Under the pieces are notes generated by a model. It was not told the origin of the DNA and searched no databases. It saw only the letters and a list, made by a program, of their open reading frames with translations. Shown one piece after another: positions 4,076-28,290 of a DNA stretch of 28,290 nt; positions within the stretch are counted from its first letter, which is position 1, and every line of letters starts with the position of its first letter. Both the position numbers and the translations under genes were made by a program. The stretch lies in IMG/VR virus record IMGVR_UViG_3300022907_000072, positions 1-28,290 of that record. The stretch is one strand, 5' to 3'. The DNA is from a virus.

Positions 4076-4401
4076 AGCGGAAGTTGATAAATATGAAGAC
4101 CTCCTCTTGCTGACATATACCAACAAAAAGCTTGAACGATAGGATTCTTTTCCAAGGCCGCAATAATTGATTCGTTGCCTGACCACCCTCCAGTTGCTAA
4201 TCTCAACCACTTGCAATGGCGCTCTCCGAAAAGCAGCGGCTTAACTTCATCTGGCGGCTCATCCAATGGGTCGCTAAAATAACCAGCATACGCCCACGCC
4301 TTTTTAATTTCAGCAAAAAGAGTTTCAAGGTTTTTGTAATCGTCAAATTCTTCAATGCTTTTGAGGAATTCTTCTGTGGGATAGTCGTCTTGGTCTAACA
4401 T
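4066..4401 (-). CDS. Conserved hypothetical phage protein (GGWSGNE type)
   Basis: 111 aa. The motif ATGGWSGNESIIAAL followed by CWYMSARGGLHIY matches a pattern I recall from many phage small proteins (TGGWSxNE...W/F...CWxxSxRGG); their function is unknown to me. The start is well supported by a near-perfect ribosome binding site AAAGGAGGT at 4413-4405. It overlaps the upstream gene by seven bases. Confidence 0.82.
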   Translation of the reverse strand: MLDQDDYPTEEFLKSIEEFDDYKNLETLFAEIKKAWAYAGYFSDPLDEPPDEVKPLLFGERHCKWLRLATGGWSGNESIIAALEKNPIVQAFCWYMSARGGLHIYQLPLWK

Positions 4402-4817
4402 TTTACCTCCTTTGCTCCTGTTGTCAGTAGTTTCCAGCGGCCATTCTCGTTCTTAAAGCCAGTGATTTGAAGATTGTGTTCTGGCAAGACGGATACATGT
4501 TTTTTGAACTTTGAGCCGATTTCTAAAAAAGGTCCACCATCGGGGTCAATAAAGGTTGGGTTGCTTGGACTATCCTTGTATCCCACGCGGATATAGTCAT
4601 TCAACTTTTCACCGTCAAAAAACCATTCGTTGTTTTCTAAGATAAAATAACGCCTTTTATTATAGCGGCTCCAAAAAGAGTAGCGATTATTTTCAAACTT
4701 CGGGTCGGGTTCTGGTAGGCTGTTAATCCAATCCCTATATTCCCGCATTTGTTTGTCTGAGGCATCTAGGATTGACTGCAAACCTGTGCACCATTTTGGG
4801 CGGCGGATTTTTTTCAT
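4395..4817 (-). CDS. Hypothetical protein, 140 aa
   Basis: Basic N-terminus (MKKIRRPKWC) then a Trp/Tyr-rich, apparently beta-rich body. No membrane segment and no known motif. A GGGAGG element lies about eleven bases before the ATG. It overlaps both neighbours by a few bases, as expected in the coupled block. Confidence 0.75.
   Translation of the reverse strand: MKKIRRPKWCTGLQSILDASDKQMREYRDWINSLPEPDPKFENNRYSFWSRYNKRRYFILENNEWFFDGEKLNDYIRVGYKDSPSNPTFIDPDGGPFLEIGSKFKKHVSVLPEHNLQITGFKNENGRWKLLTTGAKEVKC
4405..4413 (-). promoter_or_regulatory. Strong Shine-Dalgarno site
   Basis: AAAGGAGGT four bases before the ATG at 4401. It is the clearest ribosome binding site I found in the left part and indicates that the host uses the standard anti-Shine-Dalgarno CCTCC. 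It lies within the final codons of the upstream gene. Confidence 0.75.
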
Positions 4818-5224: not shown

Positions 5225-5463
5225 AATGTTTTACCTTTCTTGATTGCCGCTTTTGCTTTATTTTTGGCCCAATTACCAATATTGTCAAAACCTTTGGCGT
5301 TGGCTATTTCAGTTAGCTCTTTTTCGTAGAAAGAAATTAAATCGGCAGCTCTGGATATTTCTTGACTTGTTGCGTCAAGCATATCTCTCATGTCTCTAAC
5401 GATTTTTGACAGCCCACCCGAGAATCGAATCGCTTCGCTGATATTTTTTGGCAGTTTTTCCAT
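5221..5463 (-). CDS. Hypothetical helical protein, 80 aa
   Basis: Composition suggests two or three amphipathic helices (for example GGLSKIVRDMRDMLDATSQ and ISFYEKELTEIANAKG) with a Lys-rich end. No motif recognised. It follows 5473-5676 with nine intervening bases and overlaps the next gene by four. Confidence 0.7.
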   Translation of the reverse strand: MEKLPKNISEAIRFSGGLSKIVRDMRDMLDATSQEISRAADLISFYEKELTEIANAKGFDNIGNWAKNKAKAAIKKGKTL

Positions 5464-10750: not shown

Positions 10751-10983
10751 AATTTAATTGAGTCGTTCCAGTTACTAAGGGTGTCGAGGTAGTAGTCGTC
10801 TTTTGGACCTGGGCCGATAGAAATTAATTCATCCGCCGCTTCCTTGAGGGCATTTGCGGCTAATTGTCCAGCTTTCATGACCGCAAGAAATTTTCTCAAT
10901 TCTGACCGAGAGTAGTAATTAGGAATTCCGCCGTATTCAGCAGCTTGGGAAATATCGGATTCGAGTTTTTGGATTAGGTTCAT
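10747..10983 (-). CDS. Hypothetical helical protein, 78 aa
   Basis: Alpha-helical protein (MNLIQKLESDISQAAEYGG, ALKEAADELISIGPGPKDD). Similar short helical proteins ending in a GPxxD loop are frequent in phages, but I do not know a function. Four-base overlaps on both sides. Confidence 0.72.
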   Translation of the reverse strand: MNLIQKLESDISQAAEYGGIPNYYSRSELRKFLAVMKAGQLAANALKEAADELISIGPGPKDDYYLDTLSNWNDSIKL

Positions 10984-11888
10984 GGTGCGACAACTCCTCT
11001 ACCTTTGCAATGCGGACAATCTTGCACTGGTTCGTTGATTTTTTCAATAAGTTCTGCCAAGTAGTTATTGATATTGTTCTCCAAGTCTTCGTAGTTCGCG
11101 CCTTCAAATTTTGGAGCTAACTGAGAGTTTTGGTATTCTCGGTTGTTTTTTTCGTTTGGAGTTAAGTTATAAACTTCAATGCTGCGGTTAACTCGGTAGT
11201 CATCGACATACTTTGGCCGCTTAGCGAAAATGTTTAAGCACTTTCGATATTTTTCTTTTTCGTGTAGAGGGATCTTTTTAGAAACTACAAAATGAAAATT
11301 ATAATCAGAACTCACATAAGCAACCCGTGGATTAATATTTAACTTTACAAAGTCTCTGATGCGGCAATAACTTTCTTCCGAAGATAAGAAGCAATGCTCA
11401 TCTTGCAAAAGTTCTGGCAACTTAATGATTTCGTCAACTAAGAGATGTTGAACATTTTTTGGGGCCGCGAGGAATTTCCAGCTTGAGCCTTTGTGAGCAA
11501 TTGTTTCAATCTCAAATTCTACGTTTTCAAAGTATGGCTCCTTTTGTTCGTAAACTGGATCATATAAGCCTTTGATTTCGGCATTGTTGTATTCTTCTTC
11601 ATCGCCGTCCCAATTGAAGAAGTATTCTGGAAGGCGTTCTGGAAGTTTTTCTGTTGCAACGAATCCTTCTTTGAGCTTATAAAAAGAAATAATTTTGGGC
11701 GGCGCAATTAATTTCTCCACTTTCTTTGGAAGATTTGGCAATTCGTACCAGCCCTTCTTTAAAGTTGGTAGTGCATTTCTTCCGTCAAAAAGAAAATCTT
11801 TATCTAGGGCTACTGCGCACCAATCCTTATTAAGGGAGTCTGCGATAAAAACTTTTTCGGGTAGGATGATTGCTTTGTATTTAGTCAT
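10980..11888 (-). CDS. Conserved hypothetical phage protein with C-terminal CxxCxGxG
   Basis: 302 aa from the ATG at 11888 (MTKYKAIILPEKVF); the frame can be extended to 11915 only from a TTG. The middle holds FHFVVSKKIPLHEKEKYR and NRSIEVYNLTP; the protein ends CPHCKGRGVVAP, a half zinc-binding knuckle like that in DnaJ cysteine-rich repeats. I recall phage proteins of about 300 aa with the same order of segments and a similar final CxHCxGxG; their role is unknown. With only one CxxC, zinc binding would need dimerisation or another partner. Confidence 0.8.
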   Translation of the reverse strand: MTKYKAIILPEKVFIADSLNKDWCAVALDKDFLFDGRNALPTLKKGWYELPNLPKKVEKLIAPPKIISFYKLKEGFVATEKLPERLPEYFFNWDGDEEEYNNAEIKGLYDPVYEQKEPYFENVEFEIETIAHKGSSWKFLAAPKNVQHLLVDEIIKLPELLQDEHCFLSSEESYCRIRDFVKLNINPRVAYVSSDYNFHFVVSKKIPLHEKEKYRKCLNIFAKRPKYVDDYRVNRSIEVYNLTPNEKNNREYQNSQLAPKFEGANYEDLENNINNYLAELIEKINEPVQDCPHCKGRGVVAP

Positions 11889-11918
11889 GTGTGAATATAG
11901 TGGATAGCCTGCCAACTG

Positions 11919-12119
11919 TCAAACTGAATATTCAATTGTTGCCGTTAAATTTAAACGCGCGTTTTTGTCGCAACTCTTAAAGTAATCAATGATTCGCTTA
12001 ATGCTGTTAGCGGTTTTTTCCCCGCCATGCTCAAAACGAACCCAGAATTCGTTATGGTCGTATTCGGCAACTACATCTTCTCCGTCGAGAACGAATTCGA
12101 TGTGTGTCCATGTACTCAT
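11919..12119 (-). CDS. Conserved small phage protein (MSTWTH type), 66 aa
   Basis: Start chosen at the ATG at 12119 (MSTWTHIEFVLDGED); an upstream in-frame ATG at 12170 lies inside the tRNA-like RNA and is unlikely. The N-terminal MSTWTHxxxxI strand and the ferredoxin-like pattern of strands match a small phage protein type I remember. It lies just downstream of the RNA region. Function unknown. Confidence 0.72.
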   Translation of the reverse strand: MSTWTHIEFVLDGEDVVAEYDHNEFWVRFEHGGEKTANSIKRIIDYFKSCDKNARLNLTATIEYSV

Positions 12120-12143: not shown

Positions 12144-12241
12144 GAGATACGGGGAGAATCGAACTCCCATCTAGCATTTGCATACCTACTCCACCTTTCG
12201 GCGTCTCGGATTTCTATGTTCTACCATTGAACTACGTTCTC
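12144..12241 (-). ncRNA. tRNA-like RNA A (long non-standard anticodon region)
   Basis: Minus-strand RNA with three tRNA hallmarks. The T arm is GGGAG-TTCGATT-CTCCC (12168-12152). The D arm is GTTC-AATGGTA-GAAC (12232-12218). The acceptor is GAGAACG (12241-12235) pairing with CGTaTCTC (12151-12144) with one bulged A. Between the D arm and T arm are 49 bases where a class I tRNA has about 23, and I find no 5-bp stem with a 7-base loop there. Instead a CGCC-GAAA-GGTG hairpin is present. A sequence ATGCAAA resembles a Cys (GCA) loop but its flanks pair at only three positions. Either a decayed tRNA or a tRNA-shaped RNA with another job. Confidence 0.5.
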
Positions 12242-12248
12242 AAATTGT

Positions 12249-12334
12249 TGGCGAGCACAGAAGGGGTTGAACCTTCACTTGTAGAGGCTATTTCTAGCCC
12301 GACATACCATTCCGCCTTTATCTACCATGTGCTC
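12249..12334 (-). ncRNA. tRNA-like RNA B with encoded CCA and tetraloop in place of anticodon loop
   Basis: Minus-strand RNA. The acceptor GAGCACA (12334-12328) pairs perfectly with TGTGCTC (12259-12253), followed by G and an encoded CCA (12251-12249). The T arm is GAAGG-TTCAACC-CCTTC (12276-12260). Inside, GTAGA (12325-12321) pairs with TCTAC (12285-12281). They enclose a D-arm-like GGC-GGAATGGTAT-GTC and a perfect 5-bp hairpin GGCTA-GAAA-TAGCC (12299-12286) with a GNRA tetraloop. No U33-type 7-base anticodon loop can be drawn. It is separated from RNA A by only seven bases, as in tRNA arrays. It could be charged or processed like a tRNA at the CCA end but could not decode. Confidence 0.55.
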
Positions 12335-12344
12335 GTTAAAAATT

Positions 12345-12556
12345 TGGCGGTCTATTTTGCCCCTATCGAAGTCGAGAATCGCTTCATTGAATCGGGGATT
12401 GACTCGCAATCTCGAAATTTAATTCGCCGCTCTAAAGTTCTCCGCAAGGAGTGGATGTTACGCTACTTTAGACTTTCTGTATCTATCGGCCACTCTTTTC
12501 CCCGAACGAACGGGTCAGGGCATCCTTCCAGATCGGCCAGCGGAGGCACGGCGAAA
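12345..12556 (-). ncRNA. Structured non-coding region upstream of the tRNA-like RNAs
   Basis: No plausible gene; several strong inverted repeats. A 7-bp helix TTCGCCG/CGGCGAA (12423-12429 with 12549-12555) closes a domain of about 133 bases. This domain contains TCTAAAGT/ACTTTAGA (12431-12438 with 12465-12472) around CTCC/GGAG (12440-12443 with 12448-12451), and CCCG/CGGG near 12500-12513. A second part has TCGAGA/TCTCGA (12372-12377 with 12410-12415), competing with CCCC/GGGG (12360-12363 with 12394-12397). The strand is inferred from the neighbours. It may be one or two further RNAs, or the structured leader of the tRNA-like pair. Confidence 0.42.
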
Positions 12557-25500: not shown

Positions 25501-26620
25501 TAAAGCAAAGGTTGAATACATTGAAGACTCGGAAGACATTAAGAAGCGCGGCGTTTTAAGAACTGAAATTGATACTTATGGAATAACCTCGCGTGCTCAC
25601 GCTAACCGCATTGGTAAACACGTAATTTACTCTACAGTTAATGAGAATCAGGCGGTATCATTTGTTTGCGGCCCCGAAATTTTATCTTGCAAGCCAGGAG
25701 ATTTGATTAGTGTCGAGGATGATCTTAAATCGTTGCAAAAAAACATTGGCCGTGTTTTGGATATTGATTATTCCAATAGAATTTTGAGAGTCGATGATTC
25801 GTTTGATTCGGCCAAATTTTTCAACGAAGTTTCTTTGTTTATTCCTACTGGGCAAAATACTTACGCGGATTACTACAATCGCGCCGTTAGTCCTTCTAAA
25901 CTCAGTATGAACTACTTGTATGCGAATGACGTTCCGCAAATCGCGACGTTTTCAATTACTGGGCACGAAAATCTTTCTTTTGGATCAAAATTATATTTAA
26001 ATGCGACGGGCGAAAACATTGCTTTGCTAGACAAAGCTAAAATTGGCGGCATTTACTCGGTTACTCTAAGCGGCCTTCAACAGGAAATTTACAAACTCAC
26101 TACAGTTAAAGAATCTTCTTCTGTAGAATATGAAGTGGCGGCGATTAAATTTGACACTGGCAAGTTCGGACAAATTGAAAGCGGCCAAAGTTTAGTTGAT
26201 TTTTATAATAATTATCCTAACGTCACTTCTCCTACTCAGGGTTCCGAAACTATTCGGCAGAGCTTCTTGTATCAGCTTGGATACCCTGTTATAAATTCTG
26301 TAACTACTGGAAACTACGACCAACAAGCGGACTCTATAGACATTTCTGGAAGTTGGCAAGCAGCTTCTAATGCCACGAGCTATGATTACGAATTAATCAC
26401 GCCAAAGTTCAATTCGATTACAGGAAGAACAACTGGAAACCATGCAGTTTTCACGGATCAAACTCAAGCGGGCCGATTTGTTTTTAAAGTTTCGGCACGA
26501 AATGAGGAATCTATTCCTAATCCTATTGGGCCAACCAATTCTTCAGGTATTGTAGTGTTATCTTACTCAGCACCAATCAGAAACAACAGCATTTTCGCGG
26601 GAATAAAAATTAAGCAGTGA
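22538..26620 (+). CDS. J: Tail tip attachment protein J (host specificity)
   Basis: 1360 aa. The start is a TTG whose four bases TTGA overlap the stop of I, in line with the other junctions; no in-frame ATG precedes the conserved region. N-terminal part: a Gly/Pro stretch (RPDPPPPATLLPP) and SIDMLGEGPIEGLVN, the classical start of gpJ. Centre (about 760-1010): RYIRVTRLTPETY, KTTSEFIAAP, VWIVFDLLTNKRYGLG and SAAFRGNVFYSN as in phage tail-tip proteins. C-terminal fibronectin-type domain at about 1248-1348 (WQAASNATSYDYEL, FVFKVSARNEES). It forms the tip that contacts the host receptor; specificity is expected towards the C-terminus. The stop overlaps the next GTG by four bases. Confidence 0.95.
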   Translation: MKHFLTRNFSLIHGAGGGKKQDRPDPPPPATLLPPKLGKLRSLSSYSYSESIDMLGEGPIEGLVNQNGEIVDGYRIFESIYIDDVPVKKTINPFDESIEKASVSLENLAAAISNVWKNESGETIDKSLSSLSLQDGSYQSDRNVSDPYKFHFVDSGNISAEIVSGKTNIAKCILRGINDLKRVSVDKKQDSTCKSISRQKLLRFDGYSTFSSIETSLLKDFPSSTDYPFFCIKINLGDFYSQSSRPVQDAGEFGVNKFCSAYLDSDISSYVFEKLEISEIGKRRVLRPLRWLDMSYLSLGASTSDVKICGSIYIFGVQENGYPTHETVEAISSNVKNFYMIDFSSEKYNYYNILAEIKNGEELQSSLGFFDKTYLDKNYGIKLLGPFSTQGQTPRIKNFAPKIPKNGVIDIFPSPFEYTSFQEGAYISEEDRNFLAEEWNLQEFLLKNGKFYKAARNYRNRGLRKLKQVYLNDNGNFQVEVLWPKKRKDGAIKLSENEFLTTKPDTFYKFIFTKTGDVFTRSLKKYEYKSEIQMAFDRQSNPFEENVSDEKITDVTYKIDSFKKQIAASLIAVGDFEGSNDTRGGKSYSNWSAGSYSQFDEEPNAVTHVIKNPNVSSVYVTMGVRVLSDTVEKTKDIKGIGENIDAGTRIPTLVKFRIEMGLQDLNGVERDPTEILDFQITGLTESPVLIDIGRTENANSLASYSRFIQGPDNVASALAIPQSTDGSFRYIRVTRLTPETYSSLIRREISLEKVTEIINAKFSYPNSAIVGVKLDSRTLSSLPPRSYDARLKRILVPSNYYPLRTNGTDKRLYKTTSEFIAAPESDKIIYNGEWDGTFKEAWSDNPVWIVFDLLTNKRYGLGNFIEASDVNVWELYKIGRFCDAVNDDGVFTGVPSATGGLEPRYSCNIIIGDNVNVFDAIQNISAAFRGNVFYSNSYIDFTDDRVKLPKAFFNNQNVREGIFNYTNSRRDEQYNTLEVNYFDRDDSFKAKVEYIEDSEDIKKRGVLRTEIDTYGITSRAHANRIGKHVIYSTVNENQAVSFVCGPEILSCKPGDLISVEDDLKSLQKNIGRVLDIDYSNRILRVDDSFDSAKFFNEVSLFIPTGQNTYADYYNRAVSPSKLSMNYLYANDVPQIATFSITGHENLSFGSKLYLNATGENIALLDKAKIGGIYSVTLSGLQQEIYKLTTVKESSSVEYEVAAIKFDTGKFGQIESGQSLVDFYNNYPNVTSPTQGSETIRQSFLYQLGYPVINSVTTGNYDQQADSIDISGSWQAASNATSYDYELITPKFNSITGRTTGNHAVFTDQTQAGRFVFKVSARNEESIPNPIGPTNSSGIVVLSYSAPIRNNSIFAGIKIKQ

Positions 26621-26952
26621 CAACTACTCTTCCTCCTACCACCACTTTACCACCTACGACGACGTTGCCACCTACGACAACGCCTCCTCCAACTACTACA
26701 CTTCCGCCAACGACTCCGCCTCCCACGACAGAGCCACCCACAACCCCACCACCAACGACTCCTCCGCCGACAACGCCACCCCCTACGACGACGCCTCCGC
26801 CGACCACAACTCCACCTCCGACTACTACACTGCCGCCCACGACGACGTTGCCGCCGACTACCCCGCCGCCAACGACGCCTCCTCCCACAACTACTCCCAC
26901 GCCAACCACGCCACCCCCGACAACACCAGCGCCAACAACTACTCCCGCGCCA
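26617..26952 (+). repeat. Pro/Thr codon repeat region
   Basis: About 112 codons of C-rich imperfect repeats encoding PPTTT, TTLPP and TTPPP units. Synonymous codons vary (ACG, ACT, ACA, ACC with CCT, CCA, CCG, CCC), so the protein pattern is kept while the DNA is not an exact tandem repeat. On the other strand this creates a long Gly/Val reading frame that is not a gene. Confidence 0.85.
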
Positions 26953-28290
26953 TTTGTTTTCGAGAGTCCTCCTGATATTGGTTTTCCTTCTTCTTTTGTT
27001 CCTTCTGACGGATCAAATGGAACGGGCATTGGCTATTCTGTAGCGCTGAAAAAAGATGTGCCGTTCGATTTTCAATTCGAGGATCGGTTTGGGAACGCTA
27101 TTTCTAATGATTTTGATTTGGCGAATAGTTTTGTTGACGTTTCCATTGGATTTGATGTTTATCACACGGGAGGAAGCGTTGCTCCTAGCGGCTCTAATTT
27201 TAGAAGCGGTATTTCTTCTACGAACTATGTTTTCACTTACGAGCAAAACAAGGAGGCTTTTGCTGGCGAAGCTCATCGTTATTATCAATTAAATTTTAGG
27301 CTTCAAGAAAACGCAGAAATTAATTTTAGCAATTTCACAATTTATCATTTGCCCGCGCAAATTAATGCGGCGCAAGTTTCTGGATATTCAGAGGGTCAAA
27401 CGGGCGCTGTTAGTTTATTTTTAAGTGTTCCAGATAATGGGACGAAGTTTTTGGTCAGGCAATTTGATGTTTTCACAGGCGCAAATTCTTCTTTCTCTCC
27501 TAATAGCGGAAACTTACTGAAAAGTGTTCCTATTTTTGATTCAGATATTTCTTATTCTTTACAAATAGATAAAGAGGAGCAGCCCAAAGGAGAAATTTTA
27601 TACTACAAGGTTCTTCCATATGATGATTTTTCGACGGGACTATTTTGGACGGGACAACTAACAGGCGTTCTAGACTATCCTCAAGAGGCCAAAACTTTCA
27701 CAGAAGGTATTCCGCCGTTTGGTTCTAGCGGTCAAAGGAGTGGTATTTTTACTGGTTACTCAGTTCCGCAGATTAGCCCTTTTGATGGAATCACGTTTTA
27801 TCAAACAGGAAGCGGCCAAAATCTTTATGTTTGTCACAGTGGTCAGTGGACTCCTTTATTGACTGATGTAACGGGCGCAAATGTTTCTGGTTCGTCTTCT
27901 AAAACATTGTCTCTTTACAAGAGAGACGGCTCAACTGTAACCACCACTTTCACAGATTTACAAGGAACAGGAGAAAGTGTTTCGGGCGAAAATTGGTTTG
28001 TTTATTCGGGCCAATTCAATACTGGCAACGGCGTTTTAACTTTAAACAGAAGCGGCGACAACGGAACAATCCTCGTTAATTTTGATGGACGGTATTTAAC
28101 TGGTGTTGATCTTTCGTCTTATGCTTCGATTTCTTATGTTTCTGGTATTAGTGGATATTTTAGCGGCCAATTCAATCTTCTAAACTCTCAGACTGGTAAT
28201 TATGTTACTGGCTCTGTAGTTAGGCCGTCAGAAACAGGTTCTTTTGTTGTTGGTGATGTGGTGCGCCCATCTGAAACTGGCGGATTCGTA
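26617..28290 (+). CDS. Tail fibre protein with Pro/Thr-rich N-terminus, 3' end outside window
   Basis: Open from a GTG at 26617 to the window end (558 codons, no stop). A TAA two codons upstream and the absence of an in-frame ATG make GTG the only good start; it overlaps the J stop (GTGA). Residues 1 to about 112 are almost only Pro and Thr (TTLPPTTTLPPTTTPPP-like), an extended stiff linker. Beyond that the protein is beta-rich with many Gly/Ser/Thr turns (SGxxTG, YxSGQFNTGNG, TLSLYKRDGSTVTTTF), typical of tail fibre shafts and adhesins. It is a candidate receptor-binding fibre attached to the J tip. Confidence 0.88.
   Translation, partial: MTTTLPPTTTLPPTTTLPPTTTPPPTTTLPPTTPPPTTEPPTTPPPTTPPPTTPPPTTTPPPTTTPPPTTTLPPTTTLPPTTPPPTTPPPTTTPTPTTPPPTTPAPTTTPAPFVFESPPDIGFPSSFVPSDGSNGTGIGYSVALKKDVPFDFQFEDRFGNAISNDFDLANSFVDVSIGFDVYHTGGSVAPSGSNFRSGISSTNYVFTYEQNKEAFAGEAHRYYQLNFRLQENAEINFSNFTIYHLPAQINAAQVSGYSEGQTGAVSLFLSVPDNGTKFLVRQFDVFTGANSSFSPNSGNLLKSVPIFDSDISYSLQIDKEEQPKGEILYYKVLPYDDFSTGLFWTGQLTGVLDYPQEAKTFTEGIPPFGSSGQRSGIFTGYSVPQISPFDGITFYQTGSGQNLYVCHSGQWTPLLTDVTGANVSGSSSKTLSLYKRDGSTVTTTFTDLQGTGESVSGENWFVYSGQFNTGNGVLTLNRSGDNGTILVNFDGRYLTGVDLSSYASISYVSGISGYFSGQFNLLNSQTGNYVTGSVVRPSETGSFVVGDVVRPSETGGFV
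28216..28290 (+). repeat. Start of a 14-residue repeat (VVRPSETGSFVVGD) in the fibre
   Basis: VVRPSETGSFVVGD at 28216-28257 is followed directly by VVRPSETGGFV at 28258-28290. The DNA differs at several synonymous positions, so selection on the protein is likely. The array may continue beyond the window. Confidence 0.7.

Follow-up and report, generated by a model that had tools for sequence, protein, structure and literature searches.

Members of phage tRNA arrays are usually regarded as translation helpers or as tRNA replacements. The locus described here raises the question whether a tRNA-shaped phage RNA that appears unable to decode is a functional RNA of another kind or a worn tRNA gene. 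The window, that is, the whole stretch of DNA analysed, comprises 28,290 nt of the virus record IMGVR_UViG_3300022907_000072. The initial annotation had described at 12249-12334 a tRNA-like RNA with an encoded CCA but a GNRA tetraloop in the place of the anticodon loop, and had proposed a mimic that cannot decode. All the parts named there are present, on the minus strand, where the RNA (element 1) reads from 12334 to 12249 as GAGCACA-TG-GTAGA-TAAA-GGCG(GAATGGTA)TGTC-G-GGCTA(GAAA)TAGCC-TCTAC-AAGT-GAAGG(TTCAACC)CCTTC-TGTGCTC-G-CCA. A second tRNA-like gene (element 2), absent from that annotation, occupies 12241-12144 (-), 7 bases downstream of element 1. The features of this stretch are as follows.

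12425..12553, minus strand: family C, a conserved upstream non-coding RNA, GCCGTGC..GCTGGC..AGCGGC (homologues in other contigs)
12252..12334, minus strand: element 1, tRNA-like RNA, 83 nt without CCA (Rfam tRNA 26.7 bits, fold)
12328-12334 with 12253-12259, minus strand: acceptor stem of element 1 (sequence, fold)
12281..12325, minus strand: composite arm of element 1 replacing D and anticodon arms (single-sequence fold only)
12321-12325 with 12281-12285, minus strand: helix GTAGA/TCTAC of element 1, enclosing both inner hairpins (single-sequence fold only)
12301-12316, minus strand: D-arm-like hairpin of element 1, GG in loop (single-sequence fold only)
12286-12299, minus strand: GAAA hairpin of element 1 (single-sequence fold only)
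12260..12276, minus strand: T arm of element 1, GAAGG-TTCAACC-CCTTC (pair probabilities 0.94-0.96)
12252, minus strand: discriminator G of element 1 (sequence)
12249..12251, minus strand: encoded CCA of element 1 (sequence)
12242..12248, minus strand: spacer ACAATTT, 7 nt, between elements 1 and 2 (sequence)
12144..12241, minus strand: element 2, family A member (Rfam tRNA 31.3 bits; R1 91.3 bits, as one of the model's own sequences)
12218..12232, minus strand: canonical D arm of element 2, GTTC-AATGGTA-GAAC (sequence, Rfam tRNA alignment)
12172..12216, minus strand: insert of element 2 at the anticodon position (covarying stem TAG/CTA around conserved parts)
12203-12213, minus strand: insert part AAATCCGAGAC (sequence)
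12185-12192, minus strand: insert part GGAGTAGG (sequence)
12175-12184, minus strand: insert part TATGCAAATG (sequence)
12152..12168, minus strand: T arm of element 2, GGGAG-TTCGATT-CTCCC (sequence, Rfam tRNA alignment)

The fold given in the initial annotation is the minimum-energy fold of element 1. All pairs of the acceptor (7/7) and of the T stem (5/5) are Watson-Crick, with base-pair probabilities of 0.8-1.0 and 0.94-0.96, respectively, and the GAAA hairpin reaches 0.95-0.99. The tRNA half is not a matter of chance, because 1.83 Mb of shuffled DNA contained no 7-bp acceptor combined with a 5-bp T stem and a TTCRANN loop. For the GTAGA/TCTAC helix the probabilities are 0.77-0.78, falling to 0.37 at the inner A-U pair. 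The whole fold has a z of about -2.4 (p 0.02); the interior alone has a z of -1.7 (p 0.06), and the inner helices, taken by themselves, are therefore not significant. As to decoding, the Rfam tRNA model (RF00005) gives element 1 26.7 bits, below its 29-bit cut-off, and ARAGORN at default settings does not call it. A 5-bp anticodon stem with a 7-nt loop and U33 is absent, the 7-nt loops on stems of at least 4 bp being only weak ones such as TGGT-ATGTCGG-GCTA. Thus, the earlier statement that element 1 has no normal anticodon is borne out. A search of 0.68 Mb of phage loci with a single-sequence covariance model of element 1 found no homologue; the next best score, 29.5 bits, belongs to a class of generic acceptor/T-arm matches. 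Moreover, the core pattern met only nine matches among all viral contigs, none tRNA-like and all apparently coding. Since no homologue was found, the inner helices of element 1 have no covariation behind them. The compensatory changes that the initial annotation had asked for in homologues are thus missing for element 1, and are strong in the family of its neighbour.

Element 2 has normal D and T arms and about 44-45 nt where the anticodon arm is expected. This insert contains the hairpin CGCC-GAAA-GGTG between AAATCCGAGAC and GGAGTAGG, and no anticodon-type stem with a 7-nt loop was found outside the D arm. The Rfam tRNA model gives 31.3 bits, barely above the cut-off of 29. The corresponding family (family A) is defined by an insert of the form AARTCCGAGAC-hairpin-GGRGTAGG that separates the D arm from the T arm, together with at least 59 bits in the R1 covariance model. 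Element 2 has the insert in this place and scores 91.3 bits, although it is among the 21 sequences that make up the model. Family A comprises 64 matching loci, about 50 of them distinct, in IMG/VR phage contigs; 60 came from the first searches and four from a later scan with the 3' motif left free. Scanning the viral contigs with the pattern AAGTCCGAGACN{7,17}GGAGTAGG gave 59 loci, all tRNA-like at the match, one of them (L290) cut off by its contig end. Each of these has a tRNA frame in which a short stem encloses AAGTCCGAGAC-hairpin-GGAGTAGGCANNCAAATG or something very close to it. Members score 59-105 bits in R1 and one cut-off copy 39.5, compared with at most 42.6 for ordinary tRNAs.

In family A, the insert is more conserved than the tRNA frame. 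The anticodon position contains a short covarying stem around a near-invariant core, AAGUCCGAGAC-hairpin-GGRGUAGGCA, with NNCAAAUG after it in most cases, and the acceptor, D, and T stems vary in sequence with massive compensatory change. In an alignment of 21 diverse members, 96.4% of the cells pair, compared with 66.5% after shuffling and 33-46% in slid controls. Compensatory cells number 156 versus 46 in shuffled alignments (0/500 shuffles as high), and double changes occur in 21 of the 26 pairs. The acceptor and T-arm helices (helices 1 and 6) are among those that covary. The copy in the window has an inner A-U pair where all other rows have G-C. The retrieval patterns had fixed some 5' and 3' motif positions; a second scan freed the 3' half only and kept the 5' motif and the T loop fixed. 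All 45 of its 45 matches are family A members, and the 3' motif is GGAGTAGG in 41 and GGGGTAGG in four. In these four the downstream CAAATG is altered as well (CCCATG, CACATG, GAGATG), a co-change that hints at a possible tertiary contact between the two internal loops, although four cases are too few to claim it. The terminal hairpin loop varies and is of the GNRA type in only 20/43; the GNRA loop is thus not the key feature that the initial annotation took it for, the invariant part being the internal-loop motif. Since GAGTAGG is common to 5S loop E, 23S, and the family A motif, the internal loop may be loop-E-like. Complementarity to, or mimicry of, rRNA by the conserved motif was also considered and dropped, as E. 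coli rRNA yielded only unconvincing runs of 7-9 nt.

Family A belongs to tRNA arrays but does not share the features needed for decoding. Ordinary tRNAs lie within 3 kb in 44 of 60 loci and within 300 nt in 30. Because they adjoin most family A loci, the contrast in CCA is one between neighbours: the ordinary tRNAs of these loci encode it in 405/480 cases (84%), family A in about 2/46 at the exact NCCA place and in 7/46 with a loose window. Selection for CCA has been lost in family A, though a different way of forming the 3' end might be all that lies behind the missing CCA. Family A has no 5-bp anticodon stem with a 7-nt loop and U33, since the short stem encloses the invariant insert, and its genes have no uniform discriminator (A 23, C 11, T 7, G 5). 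The family of element 2 is thus a conserved, non-decoding structure located in tRNA arrays. The proposal of a tRNA mimic unable to decode therefore holds in kind, for a conserved and widespread phage family, and is not supported in detail, neither for the decoy role nor for element 1 itself, for which no homologue was found. No neighbour gene is shared by more than five of 47 loci, and the GC content of the contigs ranges from 0.32 to 0.65; family A therefore looks like a stand-alone, trans-acting RNA useful in many hosts. By blastn it is absent from 50,697 named phage records and from E. coli genomes, and the exact pattern has no match in 1,188 bacterial genomes of several phyla. A looser pattern tried on genome contigs returned chance matches only. 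Within the sets searched, family A is phage-only. Rfam has no family for it in the windows searched beyond the weak tRNA match, and the literature covered, outside which lie bioRxiv and most subscription journals, describes no natural tRNA-shaped RNA family with a conserved insert at the anticodon position. Within Rfam and this part of the literature, family A is unlisted. It has probably been overlooked, because tRNA finders and Rfam miss such RNAs or call them weak tRNAs.

The surroundings of the two elements are conserved in a relative, G002 (locus L019, a 148-kb contig), which has the same layout as the window; named phages yielded no nucleotide relatives of the window. In G002, a 64-aa ORF is followed by non-coding DNA containing several tRNA-like modules, then by a homologue of element 2, and finally by Gad1. 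The inner hairpin CGCC-GAAA-GGTG of the window corresponds to CGGC-GAAA-GCTG in G002, which is a compensatory change. The Gad1-family (anti-Gabija) protein lies downstream of the tRNA-like genes in both (10980-11915 (-) in the window, 55525-56439 in G002) with 66% identity; the matched stretch in G002 was reported with one TGA stop inside. Spacers similar to ACAATTT, of the form (C)CAATTT, occur in the relatives L306 and L019. Homologues of the structured family C RNA, which belongs to the same island as elements 1 and 2, were found in L019 (~4692-4805), L020 (two copies, ~11283-11373 and ~11684-11825), L324 (~4204-4320), and L049/L097; a search with the pattern GCCGTGCYTNNGCTGGC gave mostly noise, L049 and L097 excepted. 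Elsewhere in the window, a low-complexity frame rich in GGGVV repeats (26610-27029 (-)) lies opposite the end of the tail-tip gene; it may be a spurious frame or a repeat read in reverse.

Whether element 1 is itself functional has to be weighed separately. The family A motif is absent from it, and it is not among the listed R1 model matches. Because its CCA is encoded, unlike in family A, and it has no homologue, element 1 may be of another kind than family A. It might be a decayed or rearranged tRNA gene in which the D and anticodon arms have been disrupted and the acceptor/T half is not yet worn. This would agree with the failure of both the covariance model and the core pattern to find a homologue, with the non-significant interior fold (p 0.06), and with the encoded CCA and the D-loop-like AATGGTA, which resemble tRNA remnants. 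Such decay, excluded by covariation for the family of element 2, is somewhat unlikely for element 1. It is opposed by the full 7/7 and 5/5 Watson-Crick pairs with a canonical T loop, discriminator, and CCA, by the conserved non-decoding family member 7 nt away in the same orientation, and by the syntenic place in G002, likewise occupied by a tRNA-like gene (L019 5189-5291), in which acceptor-UG is directly followed by a helix. Judged by its perfect acceptor and T arm, the CCA-ACAATTT-next-gene spacing, its non-decoding neighbour, and this counterpart in G002, element 1 is likelier a second tRNA-scaffolded RNA than a rearranged tRNA. It would then be an orphan member of the same kind of RNA island as the family A gene, and we infer that it is functional.

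Several arrays use one and the same tRNA frame repeatedly. L275, L282, L283, L285, L289, and L291 each contain two to seven RNAs sharing the acceptor AGTCAGG..CCTGACT. The T arm, too, is mostly identical and the D arm Leu-like, but the inserts (~20-100 nt) differ, and one RNA of each set is family A. The sets extend over 690-4122 in L285, 486-4735 in L291, and 6120-6770 in L289. In a tRNA-frame scan, 60 of 425 genes were not called tRNAs by ARAGORN. Other observations were made in and around such arrays. A recurrent second type of insert in the AGTCAGG..CCTGACT arrays begins TTTGGTACAAGGTCGGTT. Still other inserts occur in tRNA-framed RNAs (92-149 nt) of L306 (minus 1423-1571), L019 (4901-4992 and 5189-5291), and L020 (11382-11473). 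A hairpin-rich conserved non-coding element, AACAATGAGAGCC..GGCAATTCTCATT, occurs in L019 (~5300-5390), L020 (~11840-11930), and L299; in L019 and L299 it immediately precedes the family A gene. A gene resembling tRNA-Arg(ACG), seemingly without a D arm, was seen in L319 (502-577) and L278 (6478-6565; scanned-strand coordinates) as well as in records of Streptomyces, Microbacterium, Stenotrophomonas, and Xanthomonas phages; the named phage records listed annotate nothing at this position. Additionally, a putative peptide chain release factor-like phage protein was noticed by eye near the tRNA arrays of L273, L287, L314, and L321.

The explanation that we favour, by no wide measure, is that elements 1 and 2 are non-decoding, tRNA-scaffolded RNAs in a small tRNA-array-like island on the minus strand, with the tRNA frame as handle and the insert as payload. 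The acceptor stem, the T arm, and in element 2 also the D arm would be kept as the handle, by which tRNA-processing enzymes would release the RNA from a longer transcript, and the fold, being stable, would protect it. The payload would occupy the place of the anticodon arm. In element 2 it would be a near-invariant hairpin that contains a pair of asymmetric internal loops (AAGUCCGAGA / GRGUAGGCANNCAAAUG), is shared by unrelated phages, and may bind a conserved host factor, e.g., an RNA-binding protein, a nuclease, or a part of the ribosome. A putative binding site of this sort is the most likely role, because invariant internal loops within variable helices are the usual mark of one. Both the processing from the tRNA frame and the binding of a partner are what we infer. 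Element 1 would follow the same plan, most likely with a different, lineage-specific payload. More tentatively, the tRNA fold might be an interchangeable phage chassis, in which a shared acceptor/D/T frame bears differing payloads; family A would be the most widespread of these and aimed at a common host component, and element 1 would bear another.

Other readings of these RNAs account for less of the evidence. That they are decoys or resistant mimics occupying host enzymes that target tRNAs in defence (anticodon nucleases, effectors of the PARIS or retron type) would suit the phage tRNAs for which a role against such defences is established or proposed (PMC10264068, PMC11555353), and the position of the anti-Gabija protein Gad1 as the next annotated family downstream is suggestive. 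However, these RNAs lack the anticodon loop that such nucleases read, the invariant insert does not resemble an anticodon arm, the Gad1 linkage was seen only in the window and G002, and no neighbour gene is common to family A; a decoy role is rather improbable. The location in arrays, the tRNA-like ends, and a CCA that is not needed would also fit folds that serve mainly as punctuation, offering RNase P and RNase Z/E sites for cutting a polycistronic transcript around an insert with no role of its own. Since it is the insert and not the tRNA frame that is most conserved, and an invariant core is needless for punctuation, we consider this improbable. Real tRNAs with a small intron in the anticodon loop, removed before use, would explain why the insert sits at the anticodon position, and phage tRNA arrays do sometimes carry introns, such as the group I intron in L319. 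Nevertheless, self-splicing introns are much longer than this insert of ~45 nt, Y-U33 is missing after the covarying stem, and neither the mixed discriminators nor the lack of CCA suits a real tRNA, so that this reading is very improbable. Read as handle and payload, these RNAs suggest that the tRNA shape serves phages as a carrier of other RNA parts. Some members of phage tRNA arrays cannot translate and hold instead a conserved RNA module, across very different base compositions. Such a small module offers a directly testable handle on what tRNA islands do for phages.

Among known systems, tmRNA likewise has a tRNA-like end with another domain replacing the anticodon arm, but it codes for a tag peptide, and its CCA end has to be charged; the RNAs described here leave no room for a tag frame, family A lacks CCA, and the ARAGORN tmRNA search reported none. 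With the Rfam tRNA family (RF00005) they share the 7-bp acceptor, the TTCRANN T loop, the D arm with GG (element 2), and the location in tRNA arrays. They differ from it in that neither element has an anticodon arm and in that family A has a near-invariant insert and rarely encodes CCA. GOLLD and ROOL, large ornate RNAs that form cages (PMC12286853), are also non-coding RNAs of phages or prophages beside tRNA arrays and without known function. However, the elements here are ~83-100 nt long and tRNA-shaped and match neither model; the GOLLD and ROOL models of Rfam have no match in the window, and GOLLD occurs on two family A contigs (L291 and L314) without overlapping the family A genes. Phage tRNAs that evade defence (PMC10264068, PMC11555353) are similarly phage-encoded, tRNA-folded, and located in arrays, but their anticodon still works and they stand in for the tRNA that has been depleted, whereas the RNAs here cannot decode. 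A further parallel is the engineered tRNA scaffold, in which the acceptor, T, and D arms are kept and a foreign hairpin-based insert replaces the anticodon arm; cellular factors recognise it, and it builds up when expressed in E. coli (PMC3753655). That scaffold is man-made; family A, natural and with a conserved insert, would be its natural counterpart.
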